Part shown: piece by piece, positions 10,796 through 26,953 of the stretch
How the letters are laid out: each line of letters starts with the position of its first letter
How positions within the stretch are numbered: position 1 is the first letter of the stretch
Source of the DNA: a virus
Virus record (IMG/VR): IMGVR_UViG_3300021962_000533
Coordinates: 1 to 26,953 of that record
Reading direction: 5' to 3' (one strand)
DNA length: 26,953 nucleotides
The notes under the pieces: model-generated
Databases searched by the model: none
The model's input: only the letters and a program-made list of their open reading frames with translations
Told to the model about the DNA's origin: nothing
Translations under genes and position numbers: made by a program

Positions 10796-11107
10796 ATGGC
10801 TAATACAGCTAAAGTTCTGTTTAGGGGTGCAGCAACTGTATACACAACGCCTGCAACAACTCTTTACACTGTTCCATCACTCACAACAACGATAGTGACA
10901 AGCATTGTTGTTGCCAATAACGCAGTAGCCGGAGGAACGTACTCATTGAACCTTGACGGTGTCCCAATGGTGCCGACCTTGGAAATTCCCGGGAACTCGG
11001 TTATCTCTCTCGACCTAAAGCAGGTTCTTGCTGCCGGCGACACGATTACCGGCAATGCAAACTCGACAGATATTAAATTTCATATCAGCGGGATGGAGAT
11101 AGCGTAA
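10796..11107 (+). CDS. Small virion protein, likely fibre-associated (copy 2)
   Basis: A 103-residue beta-rich protein with TTLYTVPSLTTTIVTSIVVA near residues 21-40, TYSLNLDGVPM near 48-58, IPGNSVISLDLKQVLAAGD near 63-81 and a last strand FHISGMEIA. This pattern (LYTVPxxTTxIVxSIxVxN ... L.LxGV ... VLxAGDxI ... FHISGxEI) is common in small structural proteins of tailed phages. Like the 5881 gene, it directly follows a long modular fibre. A GGAG (10785-10788) precedes the ATG, and its TAA overlaps the next ATG by one base. Function is inferred from position and likeness only. Confidence 0.7.
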   Translation: MANTAKVLFRGAATVYTTPATTLYTVPSLTTTIVTSIVVANNAVAGGTYSLNLDGVPMVPTLEIPGNSVISLDLKQVLAAGDTITGNANSTDIKFHISGMEIA

Positions 11108-13872
11108 TGGGCCTTAATCAGATACCACCAGGTCTAACACCAATCACGCCAGAAGAAGTCCTTTTTGACCCTGTTCAAAAGTTGCGCGTATCGCAACCAC
11201 AGTCGCTCATCGACACCGACTTCGAATATGGAACACAGATTTCAAAGTGGGAAAACCTAACCACAGTTGGTCATCGACCGTTCATTTACGATTCGACAAC
11301 ACCAATTACGACGATAACAGCGATTACGATGAACACATCATCGCGCACCGTCACCGTGTCGCTTACGAACACAAGTGGTTTGGCTGTTGGAACACCAATA
11401 ACCGTAAGAGACACCCAGCTGTCAATAGCAAACGGCGCATATCTGATTGAATCGCTCACAACGAATACATCATTCACATACACGGGCAAAGCTGTTAATA
11501 CTGGTTCTTTGACGTCAATTTTCGATGAAAATAAAACAGCAATTTTTGCCGGAGTAATTTTCACGAGCGCCCAGGTTGGAGGAGCTCCGACAGTCTCGTA
11601 TTCCGGCAATGCGGTAACAGTCACGACAACAATTCCGCATGGATTGTCAATCGGAAACGAAGTTGCTATAACCGGAATAACAACATCTGGAGCAAACCCG
11701 CCAAACGGAGCAAACTTCGTATCGAGAATTATAAGCGATACGCAATTTGTCATTCACGTACCAACTGCCCCAACTGGGACCCTAAACGCGTCATCTGCCG
11801 CTGTATATGTTGAGCCATCTGGAAACTTTTTGCATCGCCCGTTTGACGGCGGTGTTATTTTCTCGAATAACGGAACTTCAAACTACGAAGCAGCTATTCG
11901 ACAGACAAGAAGATATTTCCGTTACCAATCGGGTAAGGGTATCCAAATGTCATCGGGAACACTGCTCAAGCCAGACCTTCAACTGGACCAGCTGACCTAC
12001 AGCGCATCAACAAACCTGGTTACGGTTCAGACCAAGGAAAAGCACAACCTATATCCAGGTTCGACAATCAATGTTTTCGGAGCAAATGAATCGCTATTCA
12101 ACCTAACCACAACGGTTTATACGATTACTGGATATAACACGTTCACTTATCAGCCGACAGAGTCGTCAGGAACAAACATCCTGGCATCAGGACCGTACTA
12201 CATCACCGTTTCTGGATGGTATGGAAACGTAAACAGAATCGGCCTATTTGATGACCAAAACGGTTTGTTCTTTGAATTTGACGGTCAAACTCTATGGGCA
12301 GTAAAGCGCTCCTCAACATTCCAAATATCAGGAAAGTCTACGTTTACAAATGGTTCTTGCACGGTAACCCAGACAAGCTCGTCTTTCCCGACAAGATACG
12401 CCGGCCAACTTTCAATAGGTGACTACATTGTCGCCAGAGGAATGTCGTATCGCATTACCGATATTGCAAGCGATACTTCGATGACGATAAGCCCAGCATG
12501 GCGTGGCGCCACTTCGACGATGGTTTCAGTGTCGCAGACCGTGGATACAAAATACCCACAGTCAGAATGGAATCTGGACAAGATGGACGGCACCGGAGCA
12601 TCCGGATACAACGTCGACCTTTCAAGAATGCAGATGTTCTACATCGATTATTCATGGTATGGAGCTGGCTTTATCCGCTGGGGTATGCGCGCAAAAGACG
12701 GAAAAGTTACATACGCGCACAAGGTAATCAACAACAACACAAACGCCGAAGCGTATATGCGCTCTGGAAACCTTCCAGCACGTTATGAGTGTTTCAGCTT
12801 GCCGCCACGAACACAACTAGCGGGCACCCTGTCCTCTGCCGAGACAGGAACAATTACCGTTGATTCAACAACTGGATTCCCAAGCGTTGGAACGCTCTGC
12901 GTATTTAGGGCATCAACTGGGGTCGAGTTCATCAACTACACCGGCAAAACCGCAACAACATTCACTGGTCTTACCAGACAGCAAACCGGTAATCCTTCAC
13001 TTTCATTGACGATTGCTGCTGGAGCCAATGACGGCACCGTTGCTTCAAATGCAGGATTGCAGGTTGGTCAAAGAGTCACCGGAACACATGTCCCCGATGG
13101 AACTTTCATTCAGCAGATTGATGGAACCAACATCAAGCTGAGTGCTGCAGTAACTGGCGCAAACCCAACGGTAAGCGCTATTGAAATGGGCACAAACGGC
13201 GCGCTGGCGTTCACATATTCGGCGACCAACCCAACAGGAGTTGAGCTTGCATTCCCAACGTATGCACCATCAATTTCTCACTGGGGTACTTCGGCAATCA
13301 TGGATGGTGAGTTCGACGACGATAAGTCGCTCGTGTTTACCTACGGACAAACAACCGGTGTGTCAATTCCGGCTGGAGCGACAAGAACTCTCATCGGTAT
13401 TCGCGTATCTCCATCGGCGGACAACGGAACTTCTGCATTCTTCGGCGAAAGAGAACTAATTAACAGAATGCAGTTGGTATTGCGTAACCTTGACGTAACG
13501 ACAACTTCAAACACGAACAACGTGTTGATTACCGCCATACTAAACGGCGTACCATCCAACGCTAAGAATTGGGAAAAACCGACTACTGTCACCTCGAGCT
13601 TGGCTCAAATTGCAGACTACGCGGGTACCTCAACGACGGTAGACGGAGGCGAAGTAACTGGAGGATTCTTCGTGGGTGGTACTGGAGGTGTGCAAATTCC
13701 GCTCACAACAGTTCGCGACCTTGGAAACTCCGTTCTTGGCGGCGGAACAACGGTGACAACGACGGGAATCTACCCTGACGGCCCAGACACACTGCACATT
13801 GTTGCAAGAAACATTGGTTCGTCAACAGCGACAGTATTTGCTCGTTTGTCCTGGACCGAAGCGCAGGCATAA
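11107..13872 (+). CDS. Large modular virion structural protein
   Basis: A 921-residue protein starting with IPPGLTPITPEEVLFDPVQK and LRVSQPQSLIDTDFEYGTQ (about 22-47), a head I associate with large virion proteins of aquatic myovirus-like phages. Residues 70-400 contain four related modules of the type VTVxTxxxHGLxxGxxIxVxG...FxYxP, which also occur in the fibre at 7957. A GTITVDSTTGFPSVGTLCVF plus INYTGKTATTFTGLTR module lies at about 580-620. The last 250 residues are a beta-rich domain ending TATVFARLSWTEAQA. No enzyme motif or membrane segment is seen. The stop is followed after 2 bases by the next GTG start. Probably tail or baseplate exterior; the exact place is unknown. Confidence 0.8.
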   Translation: MGLNQIPPGLTPITPEEVLFDPVQKLRVSQPQSLIDTDFEYGTQISKWENLTTVGHRPFIYDSTTPITTITAITMNTSSRTVTVSLTNTSGLAVGTPITVRDTQLSIANGAYLIESLTTNTSFTYTGKAVNTGSLTSIFDENKTAIFAGVIFTSAQVGGAPTVSYSGNAVTVTTTIPHGLSIGNEVAITGITTSGANPPNGANFVSRIISDTQFVIHVPTAPTGTLNASSAAVYVEPSGNFLHRPFDGGVIFSNNGTSNYEAAIRQTRRYFRYQSGKGIQMSSGTLLKPDLQLDQLTYSASTNLVTVQTKEKHNLYPGSTINVFGANESLFNLTTTVYTITGYNTFTYQPTESSGTNILASGPYYITVSGWYGNVNRIGLFDDQNGLFFEFDGQTLWAVKRSSTFQISGKSTFTNGSCTVTQTSSSFPTRYAGQLSIGDYIVARGMSYRITDIASDTSMTISPAWRGATSTMVSVSQTVDTKYPQSEWNLDKMDGTGASGYNVDLSRMQMFYIDYSWYGAGFIRWGMRAKDGKVTYAHKVINNNTNAEAYMRSGNLPARYECFSLPPRTQLAGTLSSAETGTITVDSTTGFPSVGTLCVFRASTGVEFINYTGKTATTFTGLTRQQTGNPSLSLTIAAGANDGTVASNAGLQVGQRVTGTHVPDGTFIQQIDGTNIKLSAAVTGANPTVSAIEMGTNGALAFTYSATNPTGVELAFPTYAPSISHWGTSAIMDGEFDDDKSLVFTYGQTTGVSIPAGATRTLIGIRVSPSADNGTSAFFGERELINRMQLVLRNLDVTTTSNTNNVLITAILNGVPSNAKNWEKPTTVTSSLAQIADYAGTSTTVDGGEVTGGFFVGGTGGVQIPLTTVRDLGNSVLGGGTTVTTTGIYPDGPDTLHIVARNIGSSTATVFARLSWTEAQA

Positions 13873-13874
13873 TC

Positions 13875-14651
13875 GTGCCAGCAATTGACTTTCCAGCAAA
13901 CGCACAGTCCGGGGACCTGCACGTAAGCGCAGGCAAAACATGGACGTATAACGGTTCTGGCTGGGTGCTGGTAACGATACCGTCGGCGATGTTTACGGCT
14001 GGTGCTGTTGCTGGTTCGTCGCTCACAGAAGACACCGTTCCACTGAATCGACTGCTCAATAACGACGCTGGCAAAATTATAATGTACAACTCTTCTGGTG
14101 TTGCCACAGCTACTGCAACCTCTGGCGACATATCGATGACTTCTTCTGGCGTCATGTCCCTAGAAGCAGATGTAGTAACCAATAACCATATTGCAAACGG
14201 TGCAGAGATTGACCCCGCAAAAATTGCTGGAACAGCAGTTGTGCTGACAGACCAGGCAGTAATTACGTCATACATGATTGAAGACGGAACCATTGTTGAT
14301 GGGGACATTTCCACAAGCGCCGCAATTGGCAGAAATAAGTTGGCTGAACCACTCACCAATGCCCAATCAGCAAACTACACATTGGTGCTTGCAGACAGAA
14401 ATAAAATTGTGGAAATGAATGTCTCAACCGCGAACACATTGACCGTACCTGCGCATTCTGCTGTCTCATTTGCGGTTGGAACCCATATTACGGTTATTCA
14501 AACCGGCGCTGGTCAGACAACAGTTACCGCCGGAGCTGGCGTAACGATAAATGCAACACCTGGATTGAAAATGCGTGCTCAATGGTCCGGCGCGACCCTT
14601 ATAAAAAGAGCAACCGATACGTGGGTGCTCATCGGCGACCTTTCGGCGTAA
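13875..14651 (+). CDS. Fibre-like virion protein, GTG start
   Basis: A 258-residue protein starting at GTG 2 bases after the previous stop, so probably coupled. The head PAIDFPANAQSGDLHVSAGK then TWTYNGSGWVLV (about 2-33) is the small 'G-K-x-W-x-Y-N-G-x-x-W' module also seen as the separate 58-residue protein at 7781. The middle (about 60-160) is beta-strand and turn rich (DISMTSSGVMSLEADVVTN, HIANGAEIDPAKIAGTAVV) in the style of phage fibre shafts. The C-terminal third (NYTLVLADRNKIVEMNVSTA, GAGQTTVTAGAGVTINA, WVLIGDLSA) matches a domain common at fibre tips. I infer an exterior virion role. Confidence 0.75.
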   Translation: MPAIDFPANAQSGDLHVSAGKTWTYNGSGWVLVTIPSAMFTAGAVAGSSLTEDTVPLNRLLNNDAGKIIMYNSSGVATATATSGDISMTSSGVMSLEADVVTNNHIANGAEIDPAKIAGTAVVLTDQAVITSYMIEDGTIVDGDISTSAAIGRNKLAEPLTNAQSANYTLVLADRNKIVEMNVSTANTLTVPAHSAVSFAVGTHITVIQTGAGQTTVTAGAGVTINATPGLKMRAQWSGATLIKRATDTWVLIGDLSA

Positions 14652-14654
14652 AAC

Positions 14655-15365
14655 ATGGAATCCTTAAAAGATATTGGGGGCAAAAAGCCAGATGCTCCAA
14701 CAAACGTAACAGCGACAAACACGGTTGCTGGTGGCGCGGCGACGGTTAGCTTTACTCCGTCTACTTATATTGGCAAAGACACAATAACCTATACAGCCAC
14801 ATCAAGCCCTGGAAACCTAACAGCTACAGGAGCCTCATCGCCGCTAGTCGTTACGGGTCTAACCAACGGAACCTCTTATACGTTCACTGTTGTTGCAACA
14901 ACCAATTACGGCGTTCAATCAGACTCTGCATCAAGCTCGTCACTTGCCGTTGGAGTTCCGCCTGGGGCGCCAACAATCGGAACAGCCTCGGCAGGAAACG
15001 CCCAGGCGACTGTCGCCTACACCGCCGGAACCGCAGGAACTGGAACGACGACATTCACTGCAACCTCTACTCCTGGCGGGTTTACTGGAACCGGGTCGTC
15101 ACCGATTACGGTTACAGGTCTAACAAACGGAACCGCTTACACATTTACAGTTACGGCATCGAACAGTTACGGTTCAGCCACATCCGGAAGTTCAAACTCT
15201 GTCACCCCAGTTGCTCCCCCATATTTCCCACCGTACTTCCCTCCGTTCTTCCCGCCATTCTTTCCCCCATTCTTCCCACCGTTCTTCCCGCCGTTCTTTC
15301 CGCCTTTCTTCCCACCGTTCTTCCCACCGTTCTTCCCACCAGGTTTTACTCCTGGATTCAAATAG
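14655..15365 (+). CDS. Fibronectin type III protein with (Y/F-F-P-P)10 tail
   Basis: A 236-residue protein. Two fibronectin type III domains occupy about residues 14-97 and 99-187; both carry the signature VTGLTNGTxYTFTVxAxxxYG. FN3 domains are common on tailed-phage virion proteins and are thought to aid surface binding. Residues 190-229 are PYFPPYFPPFFPP continuing as ten 4-residue repeats, followed by GFTPGFK. The tail is strongly aromatic and proline rich, uncharged and unlike any ordinary domain. It could form a polyproline-type rod, a hydrophobic membrane-active stretch or a modified surface. The next gene downstream, 12 bases away, is a prolyl-4-hydroxylase-like enzyme, which makes this tail a candidate substrate (inference). 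No clear Shine-Dalgarno; likely coupled to the gene before. Confidence 0.85.
   Translation: MESLKDIGGKKPDAPTNVTATNTVAGGAATVSFTPSTYIGKDTITYTATSSPGNLTATGASSPLVVTGLTNGTSYTFTVVATTNYGVQSDSASSSSLAVGVPPGAPTIGTASAGNAQATVAYTAGTAGTGTTTFTATSTPGGFTGTGSSPITVTGLTNGTAYTFTVTASNSYGSATSGSSNSVTPVAPPYFPPYFPPFFPPFFPPFFPPFFPPFFPPFFPPFFPPFFPPGFTPGFK
15222..15341 (+). repeat. Ten tandem 12-bp units coding Y/F-F-P-P
   Basis: Two TA[TC]TTCCC[AC]CCN-type units (YFPP) are followed by eight TTCTT[CT]CCNCCN units (FFPP). Third-base changes (for example CCG CCA, CCC CCA, CCG CCT) vary between units while the amino acids stay the same, which points to selection for the peptide and not just slippage. The opposite strand reads as Gly-Gly-Lys-Asn repeats and is a shadow. 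Confidence 0.9.
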
Positions 15366-15377
15366 AAATGAATACGG

Positions 15378-16007
15378 ATGGATTTTTGGAGCGAGAAAAA
15401 TCCGCCTGAGTTTCTGCCCTCGGCGGACCCAGACAATATTGTAATAATTGAAAACTTTATAGCGCCAGAGCATTTAAAAATGCTCCAAGAGTATTGTGCG
15501 ACGATAAAAGAATGGTATTCGGGGGGTGGCGAAACAGGTTCCGACAGCCTTAGCAGCTATAAGGCAATGGAACAGAATGCCCCAGAGCTTTACAAAATAA
15601 TGCGCGGATACATGAAGGACGTTCAAGAAAAAATAGAATTTAAATTTGGAAGGAACCTTGAAAGAGCAGAACCGGGGATTAGAAGGTGGGTTCCCGGCGA
15701 ATACATAGACCTACACGCAGACGGAGAGACTGCTGCAGGAATTCCAAGCTTTGCCTACATAGTTGACTACGGCTCAATAATTTACATTAACGACGACTAT
15801 GAAGGCGGAGAGCTATGGTTCCCTGCATACAAATTAAAATTCAAACCAAAAGCTGGGACATTGGCGTTTTTTCCATCGAACAATAGGTACGCGCACTGCG
15901 TAACAGAAGTTACATCCGGACTTAGATTTACATCTGCTCACTTCTGGACACCAACAAAACACCTGACACTCATAGAAATGGCAAAAAATGGAACTGGAGA
16001 ATTTTAA
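15378..16007 (+). CDS. 2-oxoglutarate/Fe(II) dioxygenase, prolyl-4-hydroxylase-like (1)
   Basis: A 209-residue protein close to the usual length of phage and bacterial P4H-like enzymes. The head NIVIIENFIAPEHLKMLQEY (about 20-39) is the typical start. Metal ligands are visible as H113-A-D115 and H173; R183 in TSGLRFTS would bind 2-oxoglutarate. The core strand YINDDYEGGELWFP (136-149) and KPKAGTLAFFPS (156-167) are family hallmarks. Such enzymes hydroxylate proline or other side chains using O2 and 2-oxoglutarate; the substrate cannot be read from the sequence. It lies 12 bases after the FFPP protein and overlaps the sulfotransferase-like gene by 20 bases, so the three are probably expressed together. 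Confidence 0.88.
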   Translation: MDFWSEKNPPEFLPSADPDNIVIIENFIAPEHLKMLQEYCATIKEWYSGGGETGSDSLSSYKAMEQNAPELYKIMRGYMKDVQEKIEFKFGRNLERAEPGIRRWVPGEYIDLHADGETAAGIPSFAYIVDYGSIIYINDDYEGGELWFPAYKLKFKPKAGTLAFFPSNNRYAHCVTEVTSGLRFTSAHFWTPTKHLTLIEMAKNGTGEF

Positions 16008-16740
16008 ATACCTCTATTTTTTGCACATTCCAAAAACGTCTGGTGTAAAAATGCAACACGAATTACTGGATGCATGCAATGACTCAAATGCAATAAATAC
16101 ACCAAAAGTTTACTGCCCAGGCGATTTTGAGTTTGTCTTTGACGCAGATATTGCCAAAACACACAATATTATTAGCGGACACTTTGCTCGAAATCCGATA
16201 GACATACTGCCAGGTGTATTAACTTTCACAATGGTGAGAGACCCAGTTCAGCAGTACATAAGCGTTGCAAAATATGCGGCAATGTTTAGGGGGGATGAAT
16301 TCACTGAGGACTTCATGATGCCATTTCTTACCGGTGAATCAGAAATGTATTCGTATTTTGAGGGGATGTCCGGCTGTCCGAATCCGCAATCTTCGTTTAT
16401 TTCATCAAAGCTATCGACGCTTGAATATGACCTGAATGGTAAGGATAGAACTGTATTCGTAAAACGACCTAAGTCATTCGAAGAGGTAAAAGAGCACCTA
16501 AGCGGGATGATTATTGGCACAATGGAGGAAAGGAATGAACTGATTAAAAAGGTCAACATATTGTTGAACAAGATGTTCAACATCTCAATAAAGCCTGATA
16601 ATTCAGTCGTAAACGCTACCCCCCCAATGAATTTTGAAATCAGTAAAGAATGCATGAAACTCATACTCGACAGGACAGAGTTGGATAGGGAGCTATATGC
16701 AAAAGTGCTGGAAAACAAGGGAAGTCTATTTTTTCCATGA
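15988..16740 (+). CDS. PAPS-dependent sulfotransferase-like protein (1)
   Basis: A 250-residue protein with the 5'-phosphosulfate loop motif FLHIPKTSG (residues 11-19) and the 3'-phosphate motif MVRDPVQQYIS (82-92), plus ISGHF (62-66) between them. These three elements in this order are typical of membrane-free relatives of carbohydrate sulfotransferases (Sulfotransfer_2-like, 'HIPKTGGTS' group). They move a sulfonate from PAPS to a hydroxyl group. Here the loop is HIPKTSGVK, without the usual Ser/Thr two places after the Gly, so activity is not certain. Its ATG lies inside the end of the oxygenase gene, so co-translation is likely. No other start fits, as the motif begins at residue 11. Confidence 0.8.
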   Translation: MELENFKYLYFLHIPKTSGVKMQHELLDACNDSNAINTPKVYCPGDFEFVFDADIAKTHNIISGHFARNPIDILPGVLTFTMVRDPVQQYISVAKYAAMFRGDEFTEDFMMPFLTGESEMYSYFEGMSGCPNPQSSFISSKLSTLEYDLNGKDRTVFVKRPKSFEEVKEHLSGMIIGTMEERNELIKKVNILLNKMFNISIKPDNSVVNATPPMNFEISKECMKLILDRTELDRELYAKVLENKGSLFFP

Positions 16741-16764
16741 TTATTTCTTGTACAGTCATCAGTT

Positions 16765-16773
16765 TGTTATGAT
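16765..16773 (+). promoter_or_regulatory. Extended -10 element, possible leaderless start for the second oxygenase
   Basis: TGTTATGAT (TGn plus TATGAT at 16768-16773) ends 6 bases before the ATG at 16780 and lies in a 39-base gap, the only clear gap inside the oxygenase/sulfotransferase run. No Shine-Dalgarno stands before the ATG (TTCATT). The position fits transcription starting at the A of the ATG. A TTGTAC 14 bases upstream is too close to be a standard -35. Confidence 0.45.
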
Positions 16774-16779
16774 TTCATT

Positions 16780-17409
16780 ATGAACCAGGACGTCGAGAGA
16801 AAATGGGGCATACAGCCCGGGCACTTTGGCGACGGAATTGAGAACATCTGCATTTTTGAAAATTTCATAGAGCCTGAAGACCTCAGAAAGATTCAATTAT
16901 TTTGTCCAACGATAAATAAGTGGAACAACTCAAAAGAAAGCGTTTATGCCGAGGACGGAACCTGTTTGTATAACGCTGATTACTGGAATGACAGGATGTG
17001 TAACGCAAACATCTTGGAGGAAATATCACCAGAAATATATGCGATTGTAGATAAATACATCGAAAAAATGAAGCTCGCCCTCGAAGACAGGTTTGGTGTT
17101 TCCCTCACCAAGAGGCCTCCAGCAATTGTCAAGTGGAAGCCTGGAACAGAGCAAAAGCCACATGCCGACAAACAGCTCAACGATGGACGAATAAACGAGT
17201 TTCCAGAATATGACATAAATTCCCTCTTCTACTACAACGATGATTTTGAGGGAGGTGAGCTTTACTACCCTCAACACGATGTGGTAATTAAGCCAAAACC
17301 AGGCCTAGCTGTCGCGCACCCCGGTGATATTAATTATTTGCACGGTGTAAAAATGATAACTTCTGGATTCAGATACACATCACCAGCATTTTTCACCGTA
17401 GTCACATAG
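16780..17409 (+). CDS. 2-oxoglutarate/Fe(II) dioxygenase, prolyl-4-hydroxylase-like (2)
   Basis: A 209-residue protein with the same plan as the enzyme at 15378: head ENICIFENFIEPEDLRKIQL (21-40), metal ligands H128-A-D130 and H188, and R198 in TSGFRYTSPAFF for 2-oxoglutarate. The core is FYYNDDFEGGELYYP (150-164) followed by KPKPGLAVAHPG. Between H128 and the core there is an insert (KQLNDGRINEFPEYD) as in the first copy, and the two look like paralogs within a family of tandem copies. It ends 1 base before the next oxygenase. The substrate is unknown. Confidence 0.87.
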   Translation: MNQDVERKWGIQPGHFGDGIENICIFENFIEPEDLRKIQLFCPTINKWNNSKESVYAEDGTCLYNADYWNDRMCNANILEEISPEIYAIVDKYIEKMKLALEDRFGVSLTKRPPAIVKWKPGTEQKPHADKQLNDGRINEFPEYDINSLFYYNDDFEGGELYYPQHDVVIKPKPGLAVAHPGDINYLHGVKMITSGFRYTSPAFFTVVT

Positions 17410-17410
17410 T

Positions 17411-17944
17411 ATGCAAATACATGTATTAAGTGATTTTGTTCCGCAACACCAATTGAATTCGATAAATGAGTTCATCAATTCCAACCCATCTTCATCCGGA
17501 ACGGCAGCGACAGACGCAAACGTCGTATATTACGCAAGGCAAGAAATACTCAATGAAAATCCATTTATTGCCGGAGTTATTTCGTTGGTATCTGACAAGG
17601 TCAGGCTAAGCGCCGAAAAACTATTTGATTATAGGCTCGGTGAATCAGGGGTATTGATTGCCAAAACGATGGTTGGGCACATCCCAGAAGAGCATGCCGA
17701 TAGTCAAAATATGGATGGAACCCCAAAGCCTGGATGTGCCGATTTCTTGGTTTCCGCGGTTGTGTACATAAATGACGACTTTGAAGGCGGCGAGCTGGTA
17801 TTCCCGAAGATTAAATATTCATACAAACCAGTAGCCGGGAGCTGCATAATGTTCCCCAGCAATATCGAATATTCCCACTATGTGGCCGACGTTATATCCG
17901 GAACTAGGGTAGTTTTGCCATTTTGGTTTCCCAAATATGAATGA
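17411..17944 (+). CDS. 2-oxoglutarate/Fe(II) dioxygenase, prolyl-4-hydroxylase-like (3, short)
   Basis: A 177-residue protein, shorter than its neighbours because the N-terminal region is reduced. Metal ligands H95-A-D97 and H156 and the 2-oxoglutarate Arg R166 (ISGTRVVLPFWF) are present. The core reads VVYINDDFEGGELVFP (117-132) and AGSCIMFPSNIEYSHYV. All residues expected for catalysis are therefore in place despite the length. The start has no Shine-Dalgarno, and the ATG is 1 base after the previous TAG, which suggests reinitiation. Its end overlaps the second sulfotransferase-like gene by 8 bases. Confidence 0.86.
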   Translation: MQIHVLSDFVPQHQLNSINEFINSNPSSSGTAATDANVVYYARQEILNENPFIAGVISLVSDKVRLSAEKLFDYRLGESGVLIAKTMVGHIPEEHADSQNMDGTPKPGCADFLVSAVVYINDDFEGGELVFPKIKYSYKPVAGSCIMFPSNIEYSHYVADVISGTRVVLPFWFPKYE

Positions 17945-18701
17945 TAAAAAACTGTACCACCTTCACATACCAAGAACTTCCGGCAAGTCGATTAGCGATG
18001 GGCTGCGAACAACTTTTGATAAAAACATGTTTTCCCAGGAGAAACTTTTTGACCATGGGGATTTGCGTATTTATGATAGTGCTGCTTTTGTGGATAGGCC
18101 TTATATTTCGGGGCATTTTGGAATAAATCCAATTATTGAAAACGAAGACGGTTTGGATGTCTTTGCCATAGTTAGGGAACCGGCTGAACACTTCCTAAGC
18201 ACTGCCGCATATGTCGCATCGACCTCGCAAACAAAAATGTCTAATGAATTTTTGGATGAATTTCTATACGGTGGCATAACTGCTTTTGGCTCTAATGAAT
18301 TGTTCTCTAGCTCTGGAAACATTCAATCAAAAATGCTCTTTTGCAGAATGGCCATAGCCGATGCATCTGTGGTTGCCAGAAGAGACAGCGATGTTTCAAG
18401 TAAATCAAATATCATATTTATTGAATCAGACATGCCGGGCGAAACAGAAATCACAAATAAAGCAAAACTAATGAATATATTCCCCTTGAGCAGTAGGCAT
18501 CATGCTGTTAGCTGGTTGAATAATAAAGTACTTAGCTTGTATGGTTTTGGTGTTGATGCATCAATAAATCGTGTTTCAAACCGTTCAAACACTGGCGGAT
18601 TCACCCCGGATAAATCACACATGAGAGAAATAGAAAACCGCTCACAAATTGATAGACACCTATATCGGGTAGTCCTGGAGATGGATAAGATGAGAGCATG
18701 A
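17937..18701 (+). CDS. PAPS-dependent sulfotransferase-like protein (2)
   Basis: A 254-residue protein with HLHIPRTSGKS (residues 8-18) as the phosphosulfate loop, YISGHF (56-61) and IVREPAEHFLS (78-88) as the 3'-phosphate motif. This copy keeps a Ser at the end of the loop (GKS), closer to the usual HIPKTGGTS. The two sulfotransferase-like proteins share this front half, but the C-terminal halves differ clearly, so they may use different acceptors. The gene is overlapped at both ends (8 bases with the oxygenase before, ATGA with the oxygenase after), which makes a joint function likely. The acceptor (fibre residue, glycan or lipid) is unknown. Confidence 0.8.
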   Translation: MNDKKLYHLHIPRTSGKSISDGLRTTFDKNMFSQEKLFDHGDLRIYDSAAFVDRPYISGHFGINPIIENEDGLDVFAIVREPAEHFLSTAAYVASTSQTKMSNEFLDEFLYGGITAFGSNELFSSSGNIQSKMLFCRMAIADASVVARRDSDVSSKSNIIFIESDMPGETEITNKAKLMNIFPLSSRHHAVSWLNNKVLSLYGFGVDASINRVSNRSNTGGFTPDKSHMREIENRSQIDRHLYRVVLEMDKMRA

Positions 18702-19429
18702 GAAACATAAATGTCGAATATGTCGGAGACCCAAAAGCAGGGTTCTTGGTATACAGAAATGTACTCAGTGAGGACTTGAAAATACCAGAACGCCTAGAAG
18801 CAACCATTGGCAATAGCGAAACACCGCCATACGCATGGATGCAGGCACTTGTTGGTGACGGGCAAATAATGAAAGATTACCGAGATTGCGTGGACTGCAA
18901 GATGAGTCCTGCGCATTTTGAACACTGCCCAGAGCAGTTCTCCGAACTAATAAACATATATAACGACACAGTCGTTGGGCTCACTGCCTGCCTGCAGGAT
19001 TACGAGTCTAGATACAACATCCGTATGGATTTTATGGAAGCGATAAATTACGTGCGCTACAAAGAGGGGCAGCACTTCAACGTCCATGCTGACCACGGAT
19101 TTTCGTACATATGCACCGTATCTTCAGTAATGTACCTGAATGACGACTACCAGGGCGGTGAGCTGTGGTTTCCGTACCTCGACATCACGTTCAAGCCAAA
19201 ATATGGAGACATAGTCCTTTTTCCGTCGACGTTTATTTATTCCCATGCGTCAAAACCGGTGACAAGCGGAACAAAGTACGCAGCCGTCACGATGTTCGAC
19301 TACAACGACCGGTACCACAAGCTGTGGAAGGGGTATGGGAAAAACATAGATGGAACAGACGCTGAGTACGGACCGGGAATAGTTAGCCCCACGGCAAACC
19401 AGGTGGACAGGTTCATTTACAAAAAATGA
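18698..19429 (+). CDS. 2-oxoglutarate/Fe(II) dioxygenase, prolyl-4-hydroxylase-like (4, Lys type)
   Basis: A 243-residue protein. Metal ligands are H130-A-D132 (FNVHADH) and H183 (YSHAS); the residue expected to hold 2-oxoglutarate is K193 (TSGTKYAAV), where the other copies have Arg. Animal collagen prolyl 4-hydroxylases also use Lys here, so activity is still plausible. The core MYLNDDYQGGELWFPYLDI (145-163) and KPKYGDIVLFPS are intact. The N-terminal 60 residues differ from the other copies, and a C-terminal 40-residue extension (KLWKGYGKNIDG onward) is extra. It overlaps both neighbours by ATGA. Confidence 0.87.
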   Translation: MRNINVEYVGDPKAGFLVYRNVLSEDLKIPERLEATIGNSETPPYAWMQALVGDGQIMKDYRDCVDCKMSPAHFEHCPEQFSELINIYNDTVVGLTACLQDYESRYNIRMDFMEAINYVRYKEGQHFNVHADHGFSYICTVSSVMYLNDDYQGGELWFPYLDITFKPKYGDIVLFPSTFIYSHASKPVTSGTKYAAVTMFDYNDRYHKLWKGYGKNIDGTDAEYGPGIVSPTANQVDRFIYKK

Positions 19430-20133
19430 CAAAAGTCAATTTCGTTCGAACACACCAAAGCCCTCCAAAAATTACGCAGTCGCGCATACAGAGGGATTGG
19501 ATGGATGCCACGTACAACAAACATGCGTATCAATGTCTCCCAATGACAGTGGCAAATGTCTATGGCTGGGAGATGCAGATGGAGAGCGACCTTGTTGTTC
19601 AATGGGATGGCGGGCAAAATCCAGCACGCATATTGAGCGGAGAATACTCAAGCTCTGGAAGACTGCAGGCGGTTTCCTCAATCATCGGGATGATATCCAT
19701 TCAGATGTCATGGGTAATAAGGACAGAAGAGGGGTACAGTACGTGGTTTACCGGACCTCCAAATTATTTTCTTGACGGCGCCTCGCCACTTACGGCTACC
19801 ATACCCACATGGTGGTGGCCAGACGAGTCTCAGATGAATTGGAAAATAACAAAAATTGGAGAGCCAGTCATATTTGAAGCAGGCACACCGTTTTGTTTTT
19901 TCAACATCTACAAAAACTCTGTAATGCCAGAAGTCGAGGTTTCGACAAGCAATCTTTGGGACGATATGGAGCTGGTTCAGTCGAGGTCAAAATATGGCCA
20001 AATGAAGTCCCAAAATATGCAAGACAACCCATGGACATGGACAAAGGGAATTAAGACAGGTGTTGACGCCGACGGAAATAGAATAGGGCCATCGTTCTCC
20101 GGTCTGCCCAAATTGGCCAATCCAGAGTGTTAA
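19426..20133 (+). CDS. DUF6065-like protein
   Basis: A 235-residue protein, ATGA-overlapped with the oxygenase before it. The order of motifs is RDWMDATYNKHAYQCLPMTV (about 23-42), ANVYGWEM, VQWDGGQNP, WFTGPPNYFLDG, TATIPTWWWPDE, FEAGTPFCFFNIY and a C-terminal tail with NPWTWTKGI. This 'RRDWMD ... YRCLPLxxANxxGWE ... WDGG ... WFTGPPN ... FxxGxP' pattern is what I know as the DUF6065 family of bacteria and phages, whose function is not known to me. The Trp-rich aromatic core and the place at the end of the oxygenase operon suggest a partner in the same modification pathway, but that is inference. Confidence 0.75.
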   Translation: MTKVNFVRTHQSPPKITQSRIQRDWMDATYNKHAYQCLPMTVANVYGWEMQMESDLVVQWDGGQNPARILSGEYSSSGRLQAVSSIIGMISIQMSWVIRTEEGYSTWFTGPPNYFLDGASPLTATIPTWWWPDESQMNWKITKIGEPVIFEAGTPFCFFNIYKNSVMPEVEVSTSNLWDDMELVQSRSKYGQMKSQNMQDNPWTWTKGIKTGVDADGNRIGPSFSGLPKLANPEC

Positions 20134-22048: not shown

Positions 22049-22064
22049 GCCGCGCTCTAGCGGC
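22049..22064. terminator. Weak hairpin between convergent genes
   Basis: GCCGC, loop GCTCTA, GCGGC is a perfect 5-bp stem lying across the stop of the minus-strand synthase gene, in the only gap between the two convergent genes. Neither side has a T-run, so intrinsic termination would be weak. A 16-base A/T palindrome (22022-22037, CGTTTTTA plus TAAAAACG) lies just before it, inside the upstream gene. Confidence 0.25.
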
Positions 22065-23181
22065 ATGTATACCGCTCAAAATCCATGCCTTTTCGGCGCA
22101 TTACATATTGCCAAAGGTTGAACTTTCTGGACATGAATCCACCGATGCATGACAGCAGATAAAATTCCCACATCTTCCTGAACCGCTCATCATAGTTCGG
22201 CAATTTGTCCCAATTGGATGTTACGTTTTTGTACCATTCGGCAAGAGTTTTTGCATAGTCCAAGCCAAAGTTGTGCACATCCTCTATTACCCAATTAGGT
22301 TCAGCTGCGGCAGTAAACTGCGAGACTGAAGGCAGAATCCCCCCAGGGAATATGTACCTACTGTAGAACGGGTCGGCATCATGTCGAGCCCTTGTCGAGC
22401 CAATTAGCTGGTGAAGCATGATTCCCTTATGCGTTAACTGCTCGTCACATTTATCGAAAAACAACTTCAGATTTTTGGGGCCAACATGCTCCATCATGCC
22501 AATTGAGACGATTCTGTCGAATTGTCCAAATTGTCCATCTAGGTCCTGGTAGGTCATCTGGTGGACCTCTATGCCTAGCGGAGAGCCTCTCTCAACCGCG
22601 GTTGAAATTTGTTTGTCCACCGGGGTTATTCCAACCCCAGTAACGCCATATGTTTTTGCCGCGTATTCAAGAAAACCGCCCCAGCCACAACCGATATCGA
22701 GCACCCTCATTCCGGGTTTGAGTTTTAGCTTCTTGCAAATTAAGTCCATCTTTGCAATCTGTGCATCATCCAGGTTTTTTGCTTTCTGCCAGTACCCGCA
22801 TGAATACATCATGTAGTCGTCTAGCATTAGCTCAAACAGGTCATTTCCAATCCCATAATGGAATTCGGCATTTTTAGGTGAGCGGTTTCTGCTCTGCCTA
22901 TTTGCAATTCTTGACCATGCTGCGGCAATCGCAATTCTCGGACTCATCGGTATCTGTTTGGCTAAATCGATATTCGTAAATCGCGTAAGCATTTCATCAA
23001 CACGCTCACATGACCACCAACCATCGACGTACCCCTCGGCAAGGCCAAGTAATCTTTGGTCTAAAAGTCTGTCCCATAGCTTGTCGTTATGTACATGTAT
23101 CGAGTACGGCTCTGGCCCGTTGATGGGTATCCCCGCCTTCGCAAATAACTCCGTAAAGATTTTATTTGATTTTTTCGACAT
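22057..23181 (-). CDS. cfa: Cyclopropane-fatty-acyl-phospholipid synthase
   Basis: A 374-residue protein, near the 382 of E. coli Cfa and alike along its whole length. It moves a methylene from S-adenosylmethionine onto the cis double bond of an acyl chain in membrane phospholipid. The SAM loop VLDIGCGWGGF is at residues 160-170, the bicarbonate/active-site area has C128 (MMYSCGYW), E231 (MMEHVGPKN), H257 (LHQLIGS) and Y317 (EWYKN), matching E. coli C139, E239, H266 and Y317 by local motif. The N-terminal GLAEGYVDGWW (46-56) is also as in Cfa. Nothing is missing. The start is taken at ATG 23181; a TTG at 23187 is less likely. It is the only minus-strand gene here and is very unusual in a phage. 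Confidence 0.9.
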   Translation of the reverse strand: MSKKSNKIFTELFAKAGIPINGPEPYSIHVHNDKLWDRLLDQRLLGLAEGYVDGWWSCERVDEMLTRFTNIDLAKQIPMSPRIAIAAAWSRIANRQSRNRSPKNAEFHYGIGNDLFELMLDDYMMYSCGYWQKAKNLDDAQIAKMDLICKKLKLKPGMRVLDIGCGWGGFLEYAAKTYGVTGVGITPVDKQISTAVERGSPLGIEVHQMTYQDLDGQFGQFDRIVSIGMMEHVGPKNLKLFFDKCDEQLTHKGIMLHQLIGSTRARHDADPFYSRYIFPGGILPSVSQFTAAAEPNWVIEDVHNFGLDYAKTLAEWYKNVTSNWDKLPNYDERFRKMWEFYLLSCIGGFMSRKFNLWQYVMRRKGMDFERYTCR

Positions 23182-23205
23182 GCGCAAAGGCTACCACATG
23201 CCTAG

Positions 23206-23256: not shown

Positions 23257-23385
23257 ATGTCCAGTGACGATTTTTGCTATTTTGGCGACCTTGAAAAAAG
23301 GGATATTGCTGTAGTCGTGATTGCGCTCCCCATCGTCGCTGGAGCAATTAAGCTTCTTGATGCCATCGTGGCCTCACTTTTTTGA
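23257..23385 (+). CDS. Small membrane protein (42 residues)
   Basis: The frame MSSDDFCYFGDLEKRDIAVV then VIALPIVAGAIKLLDAIVAS and LF ends at TGA (23383-23385), which shares a base with the next ATG (TGATG). A charged, soluble head of about 16 residues is followed by one hydrophobic segment of about 25, interrupted by one Lys. This is the size of a single-pass membrane peptide. Holins and small toxins have this outline, but so do small lipid-enzyme partners, and its place between two lipid genes favours the latter. It is too short for any firm family call. Real status is supported by the promoter upstream and the coupling to the next gene. Confidence 0.55.
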   Translation: MSSDDFCYFGDLEKRDIAVVVIALPIVAGAIKLLDAIVASLF

Positions 23386-24107
23386 TGAAAGCAGAAACCA
23401 ACATGAATGTAGAGCCGCAGTTTTGGGAAGAATTCATAGGCGACATACCTTGCGTTGCTGCCGTTAAAAACAACTGGCAGGTGATACTGGCTGAGCTTGA
23501 GTCCCAAATACAGGAGACGAATGCAATGTGGCTTTGGAGCGTCCCAAGAGTAAACGTCACAAGGGAAGAGTTCAAGTCGCCAGACAACAACGCAGACCAG
23601 AAACTATACACCGGAACGTCCTGGAAGATGATGGGAACCGGCGTTGAGGTCGAATCTGCAGGGTTTACAGGGCTTGGGGAGGAAGTCGGGCGTCGAGTGG
23701 TGAAGATGAAGACAAAAATGCCATACGAGGAGGCACTAAAAAAACTCCAAAGCACGCTGCCTAAAACTGTTGCAATTCTTTCTGAATATTCTGACCGCCG
23801 CGAAATGTGTAATACCTCGCTTAGTGTGGTCGCTCCAGGCACAGTCATAAATCCACACAGAGGCGACCCCTCTCACATGCGGGTGCATATAGGCTTAAAG
23901 TGCGACCCCGCATGCTCAATAACGGTTGGAAATGAAGAAGTCGGATATGAATCAAGAGTGTGGGAGCCAGGGAAACTTGTCGCCTTCAAGGATGGTGGTA
24001 ATTACTGCCATTCGGTTACCCATAACGGAACTATGGATAGGTGGATTTTGCTATTCGACATGCCGTTGGATTATGTGAGAACTGTCGTAAGCCATGAGCA
24101 TCTATGA
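23385..24107 (+). CDS. Aspartyl/asparaginyl beta-hydroxylase-like dioxygenase
   Basis: I use the ATG at 23385 (240 residues), which overlaps the previous TGA; a TTG at 23382 is unlikely. Residues 143-225 carry the Asp_Arg_Hydrox pattern: NTSLSVVAPGTVINPHRG (His158 and Gly160 of HxG), HMRVHIGL (164-171), WEPGKLVAFKDGG (193-205), H209 and R219 (MDRWILLFDM). This class uses two His as metal ligands without the Asp of P4H enzymes, as seen here. It hydroxylates Asp, Asn or related side chains. The N-terminal 140 residues are a domain I do not recognise, with no signal peptide. The next gene overlaps by ATGA. Confidence 0.82.
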   Translation: MKAETNMNVEPQFWEEFIGDIPCVAAVKNNWQVILAELESQIQETNAMWLWSVPRVNVTREEFKSPDNNADQKLYTGTSWKMMGTGVEVESAGFTGLGEEVGRRVVKMKTKMPYEEALKKLQSTLPKTVAILSEYSDRREMCNTSLSVVAPGTVINPHRGDPSHMRVHIGLKCDPACSITVGNEEVGYESRVWEPGKLVAFKDGGNYCHSVTHNGTMDRWILLFDMPLDYVRTVVSHEHL

Positions 24108-24967
24108 AAACCGAAGAGGAAATAAAAAAAGAAGCAGAGCGTCTGGGTAAAACAACTTCACCATCCCTAATTGTGCTAACAGCATTATCAGTGCTTGCTT
24201 ACTCGGCAAATCTATATTTCTTTCATATTGGGGTTTATGGGTTTATTGTTTTTTCGCTGCTGAGCATGATTACCCTATACAACGTCTTTGGCGCAATGCA
24301 TGATGGGGTGCATGGAACACTATTCCCCGCCAACCAAAAAATAAACGACTGGGCATCAATTGCGCTTGGAATAATGATTAATGTTCATTTTAAATCATGG
24401 AAACCGGTGCACATAATCCACCACATGAACACAAATACAAAAGTCGACCCCGAACACCTGCTTAGCGAAAATAGAAATAAACGAGCGGTAGTTGGAACTA
24501 TTGCAATTTATAGCTTTGCAAGAATATTTGTGGCTATGCCCAAAAAACTAAGAAATGCAATTTGCAAAGTGTCAACAAAAAGAGCAAAAATATTCCTTTA
24601 CTTATTCAAGAAGAACCAATCTCAGGCCAGATTCTATTCAGCTACGCTAGCTGTTGTTTTTGCATCCGTTCTTATTTTTGGAATCGATTCCCCGCTCCTG
24701 TGGTGGTATATTTCCACATACGTTGCTTCTATAGTCATAGTTCCACTAACACAGTGGATTCCTCATTCTGGGAATTTTGATAAAAAGAGTATTATCGAAA
24801 ACAGGTTCATGGTCGCACAAAACTATTGTTTCCCACTCGTAATCGCCAGACAGCACCTAACTCACCACCTGTATCCGACTGTGCAGGTTACGCGCCTGGG
24901 CAAATTTACAAAATCGATAGACTGGTTCATAATGGAAAAGCAAGGGGAAGGCAATGGAATCGGGTGA
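24104..24967 (+). CDS. Fatty acid desaturase family protein
   Basis: A 287-residue membrane protein. The three histidine boxes of the di-iron desaturase family are all present: H66-DGV-H70, H103-II-H106-H107 and Q250-HLTHH (H251, H254, H255). Hydrophobic stretches near residues 21-60, 84-95, 128-146, 180-215 place the boxes on one side of the membrane, as in known desaturases. Such enzymes put a cis double bond in acyl chains using O2; related proteins act on carotenoids, so the substrate is not certain. There is no clear N-terminal helical signal. The cyclopropane synthase a kilobase away acts on cis double bonds, which favours an acyl substrate. It is overlapped by ATGA upstream and by 14 bases downstream. 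Confidence 0.85.
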   Translation: MKTEEEIKKEAERLGKTTSPSLIVLTALSVLAYSANLYFFHIGVYGFIVFSLLSMITLYNVFGAMHDGVHGTLFPANQKINDWASIALGIMINVHFKSWKPVHIIHHMNTNTKVDPEHLLSENRNKRAVVGTIAIYSFARIFVAMPKKLRNAICKVSTKRAKIFLYLFKKNQSQARFYSATLAVVFASVLIFGIDSPLLWWYISTYVASIVIVPLTQWIPHSGNFDKKSIIENRFMVAQNYCFPLVIARQHLTHHLYPTVQVTRLGKFTKSIDWFIMEKQGEGNGIG

Positions 24968-25157
24968 AGAAATCAGCGGAGACGAACTAGCTGACATACT
25001 CTATGCCGCTTTTTCAGCAAATGAGGTAGACCTGGCATACGTATCAAAGCCCGGACAAAAAAGCGCCCCCTTGCAGGACCACGATATTGTGCGAAAAATT
25101 TTTGAAGATAAGCAGAATGCGCTAAAGCTCTACAGACGCGCAAGGGGGATAAGGTGA
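24954..25157 (+). CDS. Small hypothetical protein
   Basis: A 67-residue charged protein with a strong Shine-Dalgarno (AAGGGGAAGG, about 24941-24950) inside the end of the desaturase gene. It starts acidic (MESGEEISGDELADILYAAF), has a middle VSKPGQKSAPLQDHDI and ends in a basic helix (KQNALKLYRRARGIR). It overlaps the next GTG start (GTGA). No family is recognised. The strong, dedicated ribosome binding site suggests a real gene. Being between the desaturase and an oxygenase it could help either, but this is guesswork. Confidence 0.55.
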   Translation: MESGEEISGDELADILYAAFSANEVDLAYVSKPGQKSAPLQDHDIVRKIFEDKQNALKLYRRARGIR

Positions 25158-25825
25158 AAGTAATTGATGATTTTTTAGAAAGCAGTATATTTTCAGAAAT
25201 AAAATCAGATAATTCATTCTTTCCTGGAATTATGCAAACCGAAGCAAGAATCGCCAGCGAAGTTAACTCATACCATAATGAGCAATCTTCATGCTATGCG
25301 CCGTACATGTTTTGGGATGGTTGGTGGTCGTCCCCAGCAAATTCATTGAGGAAACGTGTAATTAGAAAAATATGGGAAAATAACCTTCTCGCTCCGGTTG
25401 AAGATGTTCTTGGTTTTGAATACTGGACCAGAACTTTTGGCCCGGGCCAATTTCTTGGCCCACATGTCGATGAAGACACGTTTTTATATCAAGAGTCGAA
25501 AATATACAACGGACCAGAAATTGGTTGTGTCTACTACGGACCATCTGTAGAGGCGGTTGTAGGCGGATTTCTAGAGTTGTTTGAAAAAAAATTAACATTC
25601 GGGGAGAAAGATGCACTTGAGTGGGAAAACCTCAAACAAAAGCTAGACCCAATCGAGATGAGGGAAAGAATCGCATTTAAAGAAAACAGATTAATAATAT
25701 TTGATGCAGGAAGGGTACTGCATCAAACGAGTCCGTGTATCTCTGGTGTCAGAAATGTCATGGTGGTGAATGTGTGGCTAAAAAATAATCCACCCGTAGA
25801 TATGGCCAACTTCGTATATGAATGA
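25154..25825 (+). CDS. 2-oxoglutarate/Fe(II) dioxygenase-like protein (divergent)
   Basis: A 223-residue protein with GTG start, preceded by GGGGG at 25144-25148. Metal ligands are H104-V-D106 (LGPHVDED), H190 (VLHQTSP) and the 2-oxoglutarate residue R200 (SGVRNVMVVNVW). The central sequence is unlike the four P4H-like copies upstream: no NDDxEGGEL core is present, GGFLELFEKK (137-146) takes its place, and a 40-residue helical insert (KDALEWENLKQKLDPIEMRE) lies before the last ligand. It therefore belongs to another branch of the superfamily. The front half is rich in Trp (WDGWWSS). The substrate is unknown. It overlaps the next gene by 8 bases. Confidence 0.8.
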   Translation: MKVIDDFLESSIFSEIKSDNSFFPGIMQTEARIASEVNSYHNEQSSCYAPYMFWDGWWSSPANSLRKRVIRKIWENNLLAPVEDVLGFEYWTRTFGPGQFLGPHVDEDTFLYQESKIYNGPEIGCVYYGPSVEAVVGGFLELFEKKLTFGEKDALEWENLKQKLDPIEMRERIAFKENRLIIFDAGRVLHQTSPCISGVRNVMVVNVWLKNNPPVDMANFVYE

Positions 25826-26420
25826 AATTGTGGCGATACCTCTTTCTAGTTTTAATATTTACTCAACGACGCTGGATGTTGACAATGCAAAAATACTTGA
25901 TGAGCTACAGCTCGGGAAGAGACAGATAGAAGAATCTTATAGAAATGGATTTTTGTCAAAGACAACAATCACCTACTATGAAGATGAGCGGCTACCTGTT
26001 GGCGCACCCGAATGTGAAAAATTAAAAAAATTAATGACGGAAACGGTAAGTAAAATAGTTGGCAAAAAGATGCGGCTATCTGAAATATGGTCACTCACGC
26101 TAAGGCGCGGACAGTCCATAACGGTCCATACCCACAAGTCAAATACACATATGCACCCAGAGGAGTATTACTCTGTTTCTTATTACGTAAATGCCCCCGA
26201 GGGAAGTGCCCGCCTAATATTCAATGTTAATATTTGCAATACAATAGAACGCTTAATACCAGTAACACCCAAAAGTGGAATGTTCCTGATTTTTAATTCG
26301 TTCATTCAGCATTACAGCGACAGGCACGCATCAGACGAACCGAGACTGGTGATTAGCGCGAATTTTCATCCAGAATCACCAAATACAACAGTTGTTCCAG
26401 ACTGGTCAGCATACAACTAA
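25818..26420 (+). CDS. Putative 2-oxoglutarate/Fe(II) dioxygenase (2OG-FeII_Oxy_5-like)
   Basis: A 200-residue protein. The order of elements is LSEIWSLTLRRGQSITVHTH (87-106), YSVSYYVNAPEGSARLIF (118-135), PKSGMFLIFNSFIQHYSDRH (151-170) and PRLVISANFHP (175-185). This is the plan of the 2OG-FeII_Oxy_5 family ('W...l..Gg....H.H.....sgvyYl..p...g.l.F...p..G.l.lFp....H.v......R.siSfN'). Likely ligands are H104 or H106, H165 and R176; an extra H-M-H (111-113) is unusual. The family is known from phages and cyanobacteria and its substrates are undefined. Confidence 0.72.
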   Translation: MNEIVAIPLSSFNIYSTTLDVDNAKILDELQLGKRQIEESYRNGFLSKTTITYYEDERLPVGAPECEKLKKLMTETVSKIVGKKMRLSEIWSLTLRRGQSITVHTHKSNTHMHPEEYYSVSYYVNAPEGSARLIFNVNICNTIERLIPVTPKSGMFLIFNSFIQHYSDRHASDEPRLVISANFHPESPNTTVVPDWSAYN

Positions 26421-26429
26421 TATCTAGTT

Positions 26430-26953
26430 ATGCCTGGAAAAATAAGAAATCTTGGTGGCGGTGTAGTTGTATTCGAGAACGCCATCACGGTGCCGCTAAA
26501 TGAAATAATCGACATAATCGACCAGCTGTCCGATGAATCAATTAAGGCCCAGTACGACTATGTAACGGATAATACCGGAATGCCATTGCACGCAATAAAC
26601 AAAAGTGGCTTCATATATGAACTTGACCAAATAGCACGCACCCCAATTCGCATCCAGAATCTGAATCATCCATTTTTTCTGGAATGCGAAAACTCCATAT
26701 ATCAGTGTCTGCTGCGCTACATTGAATTGTTTCCCGCCCTACTGCAATGCCTATGGTGGAAAAGCGATGGACATGTTCTTAAGTATCCAACTGGTGCAAA
26801 ATTGGGCTTTCATTGTGACAATGACGTTAATTATAGATATGGGCAACTCCCCCCTTTCGAGCACGCCACACGAAACGTGATTAGCGCTTTGGTCTACATA
26901 AACAGCAACTGCGACGATGGTGATTGCGATGAGCATTCATTTACTGGTGGAGA
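26430..26953 (+). CDS. 2-oxoglutarate/Fe(II) dioxygenase, 5' part (runs off the window)
   Basis: The frame from the ATG at 26430 stays open to the end of the window (174 codons seen). It starts PGKIRNLGGGVVVFENAITV (2-21), and has LKYPTGAKLGFHCDND (117-132), with H128-C-D130 as the first two metal ligands, and ISALVYINSN (151-160) followed by FTGG, which matches the YxNxxxxxxFxGGE core of P4H-like enzymes. The third ligand and the 2-oxoglutarate residue lie beyond the edge. A TAATAT box lies 6 bases before the ATG, but because it overlaps the previous stop it is weak evidence. The substrate is unknown. Confidence 0.75.
   Translation, partial: MPGKIRNLGGGVVVFENAITVPLNEIIDIIDQLSDESIKAQYDYVTDNTGMPLHAINKSGFIYELDQIARTPIRIQNLNHPFFLECENSIYQCLLRYIELFPALLQCLWWKSDGHVLKYPTGAKLGFHCDNDVNYRYGQLPPFEHATRNVISALVYINSNCDDGDCDEHSFTGG

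Follow-up and report, generated by a model that had tools for sequence, protein, structure and literature searches.

What does a virus do with four prolyl-hydroxylase-like and two sulfotransferase-like genes packed end to end? A 26,953-base viral contig from IMG/VR (the window, meaning the whole stretch of DNA that was analyzed) carries six consecutive open reading frames (ORFs) on the + strand at positions 15378-19429, and the ORF listing of the window confirms the order given by a first-pass annotation of this DNA: oxygenase, sulfotransferase (ST), oxygenase, oxygenase, ST, oxygenase. That annotation overlooked the key neighbor, a gene just upstream (14655-15365) whose product joins an FN3 domain to a C-terminal run of PPFF units. 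Because many phage contigs have the same genes behind repeats of this kind, we conclude that the enzymes probably decorate the PPFF repeat on the virus particle.

A proline-rich tail on a putative tail-module protein

The FN3-PPFF gene stops 12 bases before the first oxygenase gene. Its product, 236 residues in length, consists over the last ~50 residues of PPYFPPYF, then eight PPFF units, then PPGFTPGFK; Tandem Repeats Finder reports a 12-base tandem repeat within the gene at 15225-15340. The protein has an FN3 domain and weak matches to tail PHROGs, and a structural gene module lies upstream: the preceding genes encode tail-fiber and virion structural proteins by PHROG, and the product of 11107..13872 matches structural proteins of Synechococcus phages S-PM2 and S-H9-1 with ~45% identity at 97% coverage. 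The N-terminal parts joined to PPFF tails vary, being FN3 in the window and apparently PASTA in loci L224 and L229, and this variation fits a modular tail. Across the surveyed tracts, the third position of PPxF is Phe in 716 cases and Tyr in 192, Tyr being the commonest variant. By eye, the PPFF proteins of L038, L066, L070, L090, and L118 run on past the tract into an apparent Hint/intein-type self-processing domain. A bacterial origin of PPFF was considered and rejected; of six stretches in the genome contigs searched, the tracts of L224, L226, and L229 lie in phage-like surroundings, and the other three are apparent chance frames.

Prolyl-hydroxylase-like genes lie downstream of PPFF tracts

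At least 120 viral loci were picked solely by a DNA pattern for PPFFPPFFPPFFP, and random control loci were drawn by an arbitrary 14-mer. Of the 70 loci testable downstream, 62 had a prolyl 4-hydroxylase (P4H)-like gene within 3 kb on that side of the PPFF tract, 60 of them on the same strand; of the 50 testable upstream, 0 had one within 3 kb. Within 3 kb of random positions in the random loci, the frequency was about 0.5%. De-duplication at 90% identity gave 59/67 downstream and 0/47 upstream, and at 80% identity, 44/51 and 0/43. Because the P4H hidden Markov model had been partly trained on the PPFF loci themselves, the search was repeated over whole records with Pfam PF13640, which was present in 45 of 50 PPFF records and in 0 of 50 random records. 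The coupling of predicted P4Hs to the tract is well supported by genomics.

Collagen-like (GPP)n ORFs had a P4H within 3 kb downstream in 2 of 63 loci, which argues that the association is with the PPFF tract and not with proline-rich repeats generally. An explanation by any proline-rich tract was rejected on this control set, which differs from the PPFF set in host and G+C. Two Kyanoviridae records do have a P4H gene directly or shortly after collagen-like GPP-tract genes, namely, L223 (4461-6699, Marine virus AG-345-F15) and L236 (1-8375, Synechococcus phage S-CAM7); S-CAM7 is an isolate, so hydroxylation is testable there. Of the 120 collagen-like loci, 0 had an ST. At PPFF loci, STs were present in 15/120, compared with 0/87 random loci (p 2e-4), and since so few PPFF loci have one, sulfation appears to be optional.

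The same unit is recovered from the sulfotransferase side

A scan with an ST alignment yielded 262 relatives, of which 80 were kept; the known contig L005 was left out, leaving 79. A P4H lay within 3 kb of the ST in 74 of these 79, so that the two families, whose adjacency in other phages was a question raised by the first-pass annotation, are coupled. A PPFF-type tract was found upstream on the same strand in 57 of the 63 relatives having at least 2 kb of upstream sequence. After clustering at 50% identity, 9 of 12 had a P4H near the ST, and 6 of 10 had a tract upstream of it.

The recurring unit consists of a PPFF protein, P4Hs, one or two optional STs, and a DUF6065 protein, commonly in the orders PPFF-P4H-ST-P4H-P4H-P4H-DUF6065 and PPFF-P4H-ST-ST-P4H-P4H-P4H-DUF6065. 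Relatives of DUF6065 occur in 61 survey loci and are preceded by a P4H in 51. The six window genes stand in the same interleaved order on one other contig, L005; because that order is found again there and variant orders recur widely, the cassette is not a chance assembly. The alternation itself, presented as the feature by the first-pass annotation, is not conserved, most relatives having a single ST or an ST-ST tandem. No DNA relatives of the cassette were found in phage isolates; tblastn of both STs and the PPFF protein against phage isolates also returned none, the tract falling outside this comparison since BLAST masks the repeat.

The cassette should be bounded at 14655-20133, with the PPFF protein before and DUF6065 after the six genes. 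The features of the cassette and its upstream context are as follows.

11107..13872, + strand, virion structural protein, context upstream of the cassette (phrog_5838 virion structural protein, 1e-270)
13875..14651, + strand, tail/virion structural protein, context (phrog_18179 virion structural protein, phrog_8780 minor tail protein)
14655..15365, + strand, FN3 tail-module protein with C-terminal PPYFPPYF(PPFF)n, candidate substrate (PF00041 fn3, 2e-11)
15215..15340, + strand, DNA coding for the (PPFF)n tract (Tandem Repeats Finder rows 15215-15337 and 15225-15340)
15378..16007, + strand, P4H-like 2-oxoglutarate (2OG)-Fe(II) oxygenase 1 (PF13640, 2.1e-7; HxD...H and G.R intact)
15988..16740, + strand, 3'-phosphoadenosine 5'-phosphosulfate (PAPS) sulfotransferase-like protein 1, ST1 (phrog_3347, 1e-3; profile to HS6ST, 1.3e-9; model matches HS2ST/HS6ST)
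16780..17409, + strand, P4H-like 2OG-Fe(II) oxygenase 2 (PF13640, 7.6e-5, below cut-off; phrog_61, 6e-17; motif intact)
17411..17944, + strand, P4H-like 2OG-Fe(II) oxygenase 3 (PF13640, 3.8e-10; motif intact)
17937..18701, + strand, PAPS sulfotransferase-like protein 2, ST2 (28% identity to ST1, E 2e-24; invariant H, G, R, and S common to both)
18698..19429, + strand, P4H-like 2OG-Fe(II) oxygenase 4 (PF13640, 1.3e-12; best PDB relative 3itq/5hv0, 3e-6)
19426..20133, + strand, DUF6065 protein, recurrent partner (PF19541, 8e-47; dUTPase-like fold)

Oxygenase 1 overlaps ST1 by 20 bases (16007/15988), a 39-base gap separates ST1 from oxygenase 2 (16740/16780), and a single base separates oxygenases 2 and 3 (17409/17411). 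The remaining junctions are overlaps: 8 bases between oxygenase 3 and ST2 (17944/17937), 4 between ST2 and oxygenase 4 (18701/18698), and 4 between oxygenase 4 and the DUF6065 gene (19429/19426). Assignment of DUF6065 as a dUTPase was rejected; its fold is dUTPase-like, but the invariant residues R23, W25, M26, H33, Y35, and C37 look unlike dUTPase motifs.

Predicted activities and conservation of the enzymes

Three of the four oxygenases matched PF13640 above the family cut-off, with oxygenase 2 just under it (24 vs 27 bits), and all four matched phrog_61. The iron ligands H113, D115, and H173 (oxygenase 1 numbering) are invariant in an alignment of 16 sequences, in which the basic 2OG-binding residue is also present, as SG.R or SG.K after the distal His. 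The closest solved structures to oxygenase 4 are the prolyl 4-hydroxylases 3itq/5hv0 (3e-6); the lysyl hydroxylase LH3 is also among the matches. By family profile and motifs the four are Fe/2OG prolyl-hydroxylase-like enzymes with a predicted prolyl activity, in agreement with the first-pass call, the HxD...H motif being intact throughout.

Assignment of the STs was less direct. Neither ST protein of the window matched any family in a Pfam search, Sulfotransfer_2 (PF03567) included, and PF03567 had no match anywhere in the record; PF03567 matched 3 of 27 ST relatives (best 3e-5), and phrog_3347, "Galactose-3-O-sulfotransferase," matched the STs weakly (1e-3 to 2e-3). A profile built from the 27 relatives matched heparan sulfate (HS) 6-O-sulfotransferase (HS6ST) at 1.3e-9 with both PAPS motifs aligned, and four residues are invariant across the 27: H13 and G19 in the 5'-phosphosulfate loop, and R84 and S92 at the 3'-phosphate. 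An AlphaFold model of the ST (pLDDT 86, pTM 0.87) was searched with Foldseek, which placed sulfotransferases at the top (best 9e-7, to HS6ST), and with VIA, which gave HS 2-O-sulfotransferase (HS2ST) at Z 15.4 (rmsd 3.6, 212 aligned) and HS6ST at Z 13.3, with other sulfotransferases under Z 10, among them tyrosylprotein sulfotransferases at Z 8.5. We assign the proteins as STs because of fold and motifs, and not by membership in PF03567. They look able to bind PAPS, and sulfate transfer is predicted. The earlier call of PAPS sulfotransferases, made from the letters alone, thus holds through the HS6ST profile match, the predicted fold, and the PAPS motifs.

Comparison of the window with L005 gave ratios of nonsynonymous to synonymous substitution (dN/dS) from 0.001 to 0.14 for the PPFF protein, P4H2, P4H3, P4H4, ST2, and DUF6065, the FN3-PPFF protein itself giving 0.028. 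For P4H1 and ST1 the synonymous sites were saturated, with dN of 0.2 and 0.1, respectively. The cassette genes are under purifying selection; the low dN/dS where it could be measured indicates that they are maintained. Oxygenase 4 (18698-19429) and its counterpart at 6012-6743 of L005 share 242 of 243 residues at a dS of 1.16 (dN/dS 0.001), and this enzyme, which precedes DUF6065, may be the most constrained member of the cassette.

What may be modified, and by which enzyme

We consider it somewhat more probable than the contrary that the cassette is a virion-protein modification system, in which the P4Hs act on the (PPFF)n tail and the STs afterwards add sulfate to it or to a glycan it bears. 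The protein of the tail module that is encoded immediately upstream would present a (PPFF)n C terminus; the four 2OG-Fe(II) oxygenases would hydroxylate residues of the tract, most likely prolines; and the two PAPS-dependent STs would place sulfate on the product, at either a hydroxyl or an attached glycan, leaving a negatively charged, altered particle surface. We infer that the tract is the substrate and proline the modified residue, that the virion exposes the tail, and that the STs act on this protein too; residues other than proline may possibly be hydroxylated. Side-, strand-, and tract-specific linkage gives the proposed hydroxylation good support, and the proposed sulfation is the weaker half. 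The sulfate acceptor could be hydroxyproline directly, Tyr (in PPYF), a hydroxyproline-linked glycan, or some other molecule. The first-pass annotation had proposed a two-step modification of a common virion target: the coupling of the families stands, and the tail-module protein with its PPFF tail is a likely target, whereas placement of the sulfate on the very hydroxyl made by the oxygenases is something we only infer.

Several observations weigh against this interpretation. De-duplication of the tract-side sample at 70% identity leaves few clusters, 10 of them testable, of which 7 have a P4H downstream of PPFF. Most of the ST query sequences came from PPFF loci, and the two samples overlap in some contigs, so the ST-side test is supportive and not fully independent. 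STs are present at only a minority of PPFF loci, and the Tyr fraction of the tract is alike with an ST (0.16) and without one (0.14; p 0.39). The fold of the ST model is nearest to glycan sulfotransferases by VIA, and no glycosyltransferase was recognized in the window. Nor are phage 2OG oxygenases confined to the vicinity of tail genes, an example being S-CAM9, where the neighbors are DNA polymerase and primase.

The oxygenases might hydroxylate the PPFF tail and the STs act elsewhere, for example, on a different glycan of the virion or on one at the host surface; the genes would then adjoin because both remodel the particle-host interface. The closest structural relatives of the ST, HS2ST and HS6ST, sulfate sugars, and the ST is optional at PPFF loci where the P4H is nearly constant. 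Yet ST relatives are nearly always found within the PPFF-P4H unit, which suggests the same target for ST and P4H, and we regard separate targets as unlikely. Unlikely, too, is the most specific form of the modification system, in which the phage would hydroxylate prolines of a (PPFF)n virion tail and sulfate that same hydroxyl, thereby acquiring a charged coat that serves in adhesion or in the choice of receptor; to our knowledge, sulfated hydroxyproline is known from no other organism.

The STs might instead sulfate tract tyrosines (PPYF) independently of proline hydroxylation. The frequency of Tyr at the third position, the PPYFPPYF with which the window tail begins, and the appearance of tyrosylprotein sulfotransferases in the structural list are in keeping with this; the equal Tyr fractions with and without an ST, and the far better match to glycan sulfotransferases (Z 15 and 13), make it distinctly improbable. 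Auxiliary metabolism, with the oxygenases modulating 2OG or having lipids or other small molecules as substrates, whose products the STs would sulfate, would be in line with the roles proposed for 2OG-Fe(II) oxygenases of T4-like cyanophages, namely, 2OG/nitrogen (NtcA) modulation or DNA repair (PMC3037559), and with the presence of cyclopropane fatty acid synthase and fatty acid desaturase genes in the window. It does not predict a linkage that is downstream only, tract specific, and found in many lineages, and we think it very improbable. That such genes merely collect in the tail region as variable cargo, with no functional link, is already disfavored and hardly credible. Unrelated cargo does occur in the window tail region, but the order is conserved, the overlaps are short, the linkage is confined to one side and is absent near collagen-like tracts and in random loci, and the genes are under purifying selection.

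Glycosylation, PAPS supply, and host clues

PF11397, which we take to be the family of the Skp1 hydroxyproline N-acetylglucosaminyltransferase, was found in 7/50 PPFF records and 0/50 random records (p 0.012), the random arm having no positive control; the genes do not always adjoin the tract. This hints at synthesis of hydroxyproline and its further modification in some relatives, possibly as a glycan branch of the modification system. PF11397 glycosyltransferase-like genes were seen on the PPFF-bearing contigs L101, L070, and L090 and in records G073, G087, G103, G106, and G117.

APS kinase was found in 1 of 15 relatives. The domain (PF01583) lies at 32590-32844 of record G151 (locus L390), whose contig also has an ST cassette, and phage supply of PAPS through this enzyme is possible. 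No photosystem genes were found in 15 relatives, some over 130 kb, and a T4-type portal model had no match in 15 relatives, an absence that carries no information since the model matched no control genome either.

Other features of the window

A cyclopropane fatty acid synthase-like gene (22057-23187, - strand; PF02353, 3e-75) and a fatty acid desaturase-like gene (24104-24967, + strand; PF00487, 1e-19) suggest that the same phage may modify lipids. A second oxygenase cluster at 23382-26953, which continues on contig L005, has three additional genes of 2OG-Fe(II) oxygenase-like type alongside one that resembles Asp/Asn beta-hydroxylases (PF05118). At 512-3619, a 1,035-residue protein is made of LHTAPRTASASGGATAGD-type repeats, its sole match being a PHROG of unknown function.

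Relation to known systems

Viral precedent comes from the prolyl 4-hydroxylase of chlorella virus PBCV-1, for which proline-rich viral proteins were the proposed target (Eriksson et al. 1999, as cited in PMC9301287). It is likewise a virus-encoded 2OG-Fe(II) prolyl hydroxylase, and its structure, 5c5t, weakly matches here (E 0.16); it differs as the single enzyme of a giant algal virus, compared with a four-gene oxygenase set in the cassette. Its peptide repeats differ from PPFF, and we know of no ST linked to it. The oxygenases of T4-like cyanophages belong to the same PHROG, phrog_61, and in some, such as S-SCSM1, lie beside tail fiber genes; unlike the cassette, the cyanophage regions inspected have no PPFF tract and no linked ST. 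A sulfotransferase family protein of unclear function was reported from OM43 phage genomes (PMC10580990); it differs in belonging to Sulfotransfer_3 (PF13469), and neither hydroxylases nor a tail protein with repeats were reported alongside it. HS 2-O- and 6-O-sulfotransferases, the best solved structural relatives, have the PAPS-binding loop, Arg, and Ser in common with the phage STs, but are about 17% identical to them and are eukaryotic Golgi enzymes acting on glycosaminoglycans. SKP1 carries a glycan on hydroxyproline (PMC11570480), and that pathway, with a prolyl hydroxylase followed by a glycosyltransferase, has the same logic as the proposed system, in which proline would be hydroxylated and then decorated; it differs in being eukaryotic, in serving oxygen sensing, and in lacking sulfation, and no PF11397 gene was recognized in the window.

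The string PPFFPPFF occurred in none of the open-licence papers searched, and none was found that brings together prolyl hydroxylase, sulfotransferase, and phage tail; such absence is not proof. Within that literature, the first-pass statement that no phage system of this form has been described is upheld. We rate the substrate tract, partner enzyme, and gene unit as undescribed, and the enzyme families and the viral precedent for proline hydroxylation as known.

Phage 2OG-Fe(II) oxygenases are common and unexplained, and the side- and tract-specific linkage to PPFF offers a concrete candidate substrate open to testing with short peptides. If the proposal is true, a surface chemistry not described in the papers searched would be at work: hydroxylation of a proline-rich tail on the particles of many phages, with sulfation or glycosylation added in some.

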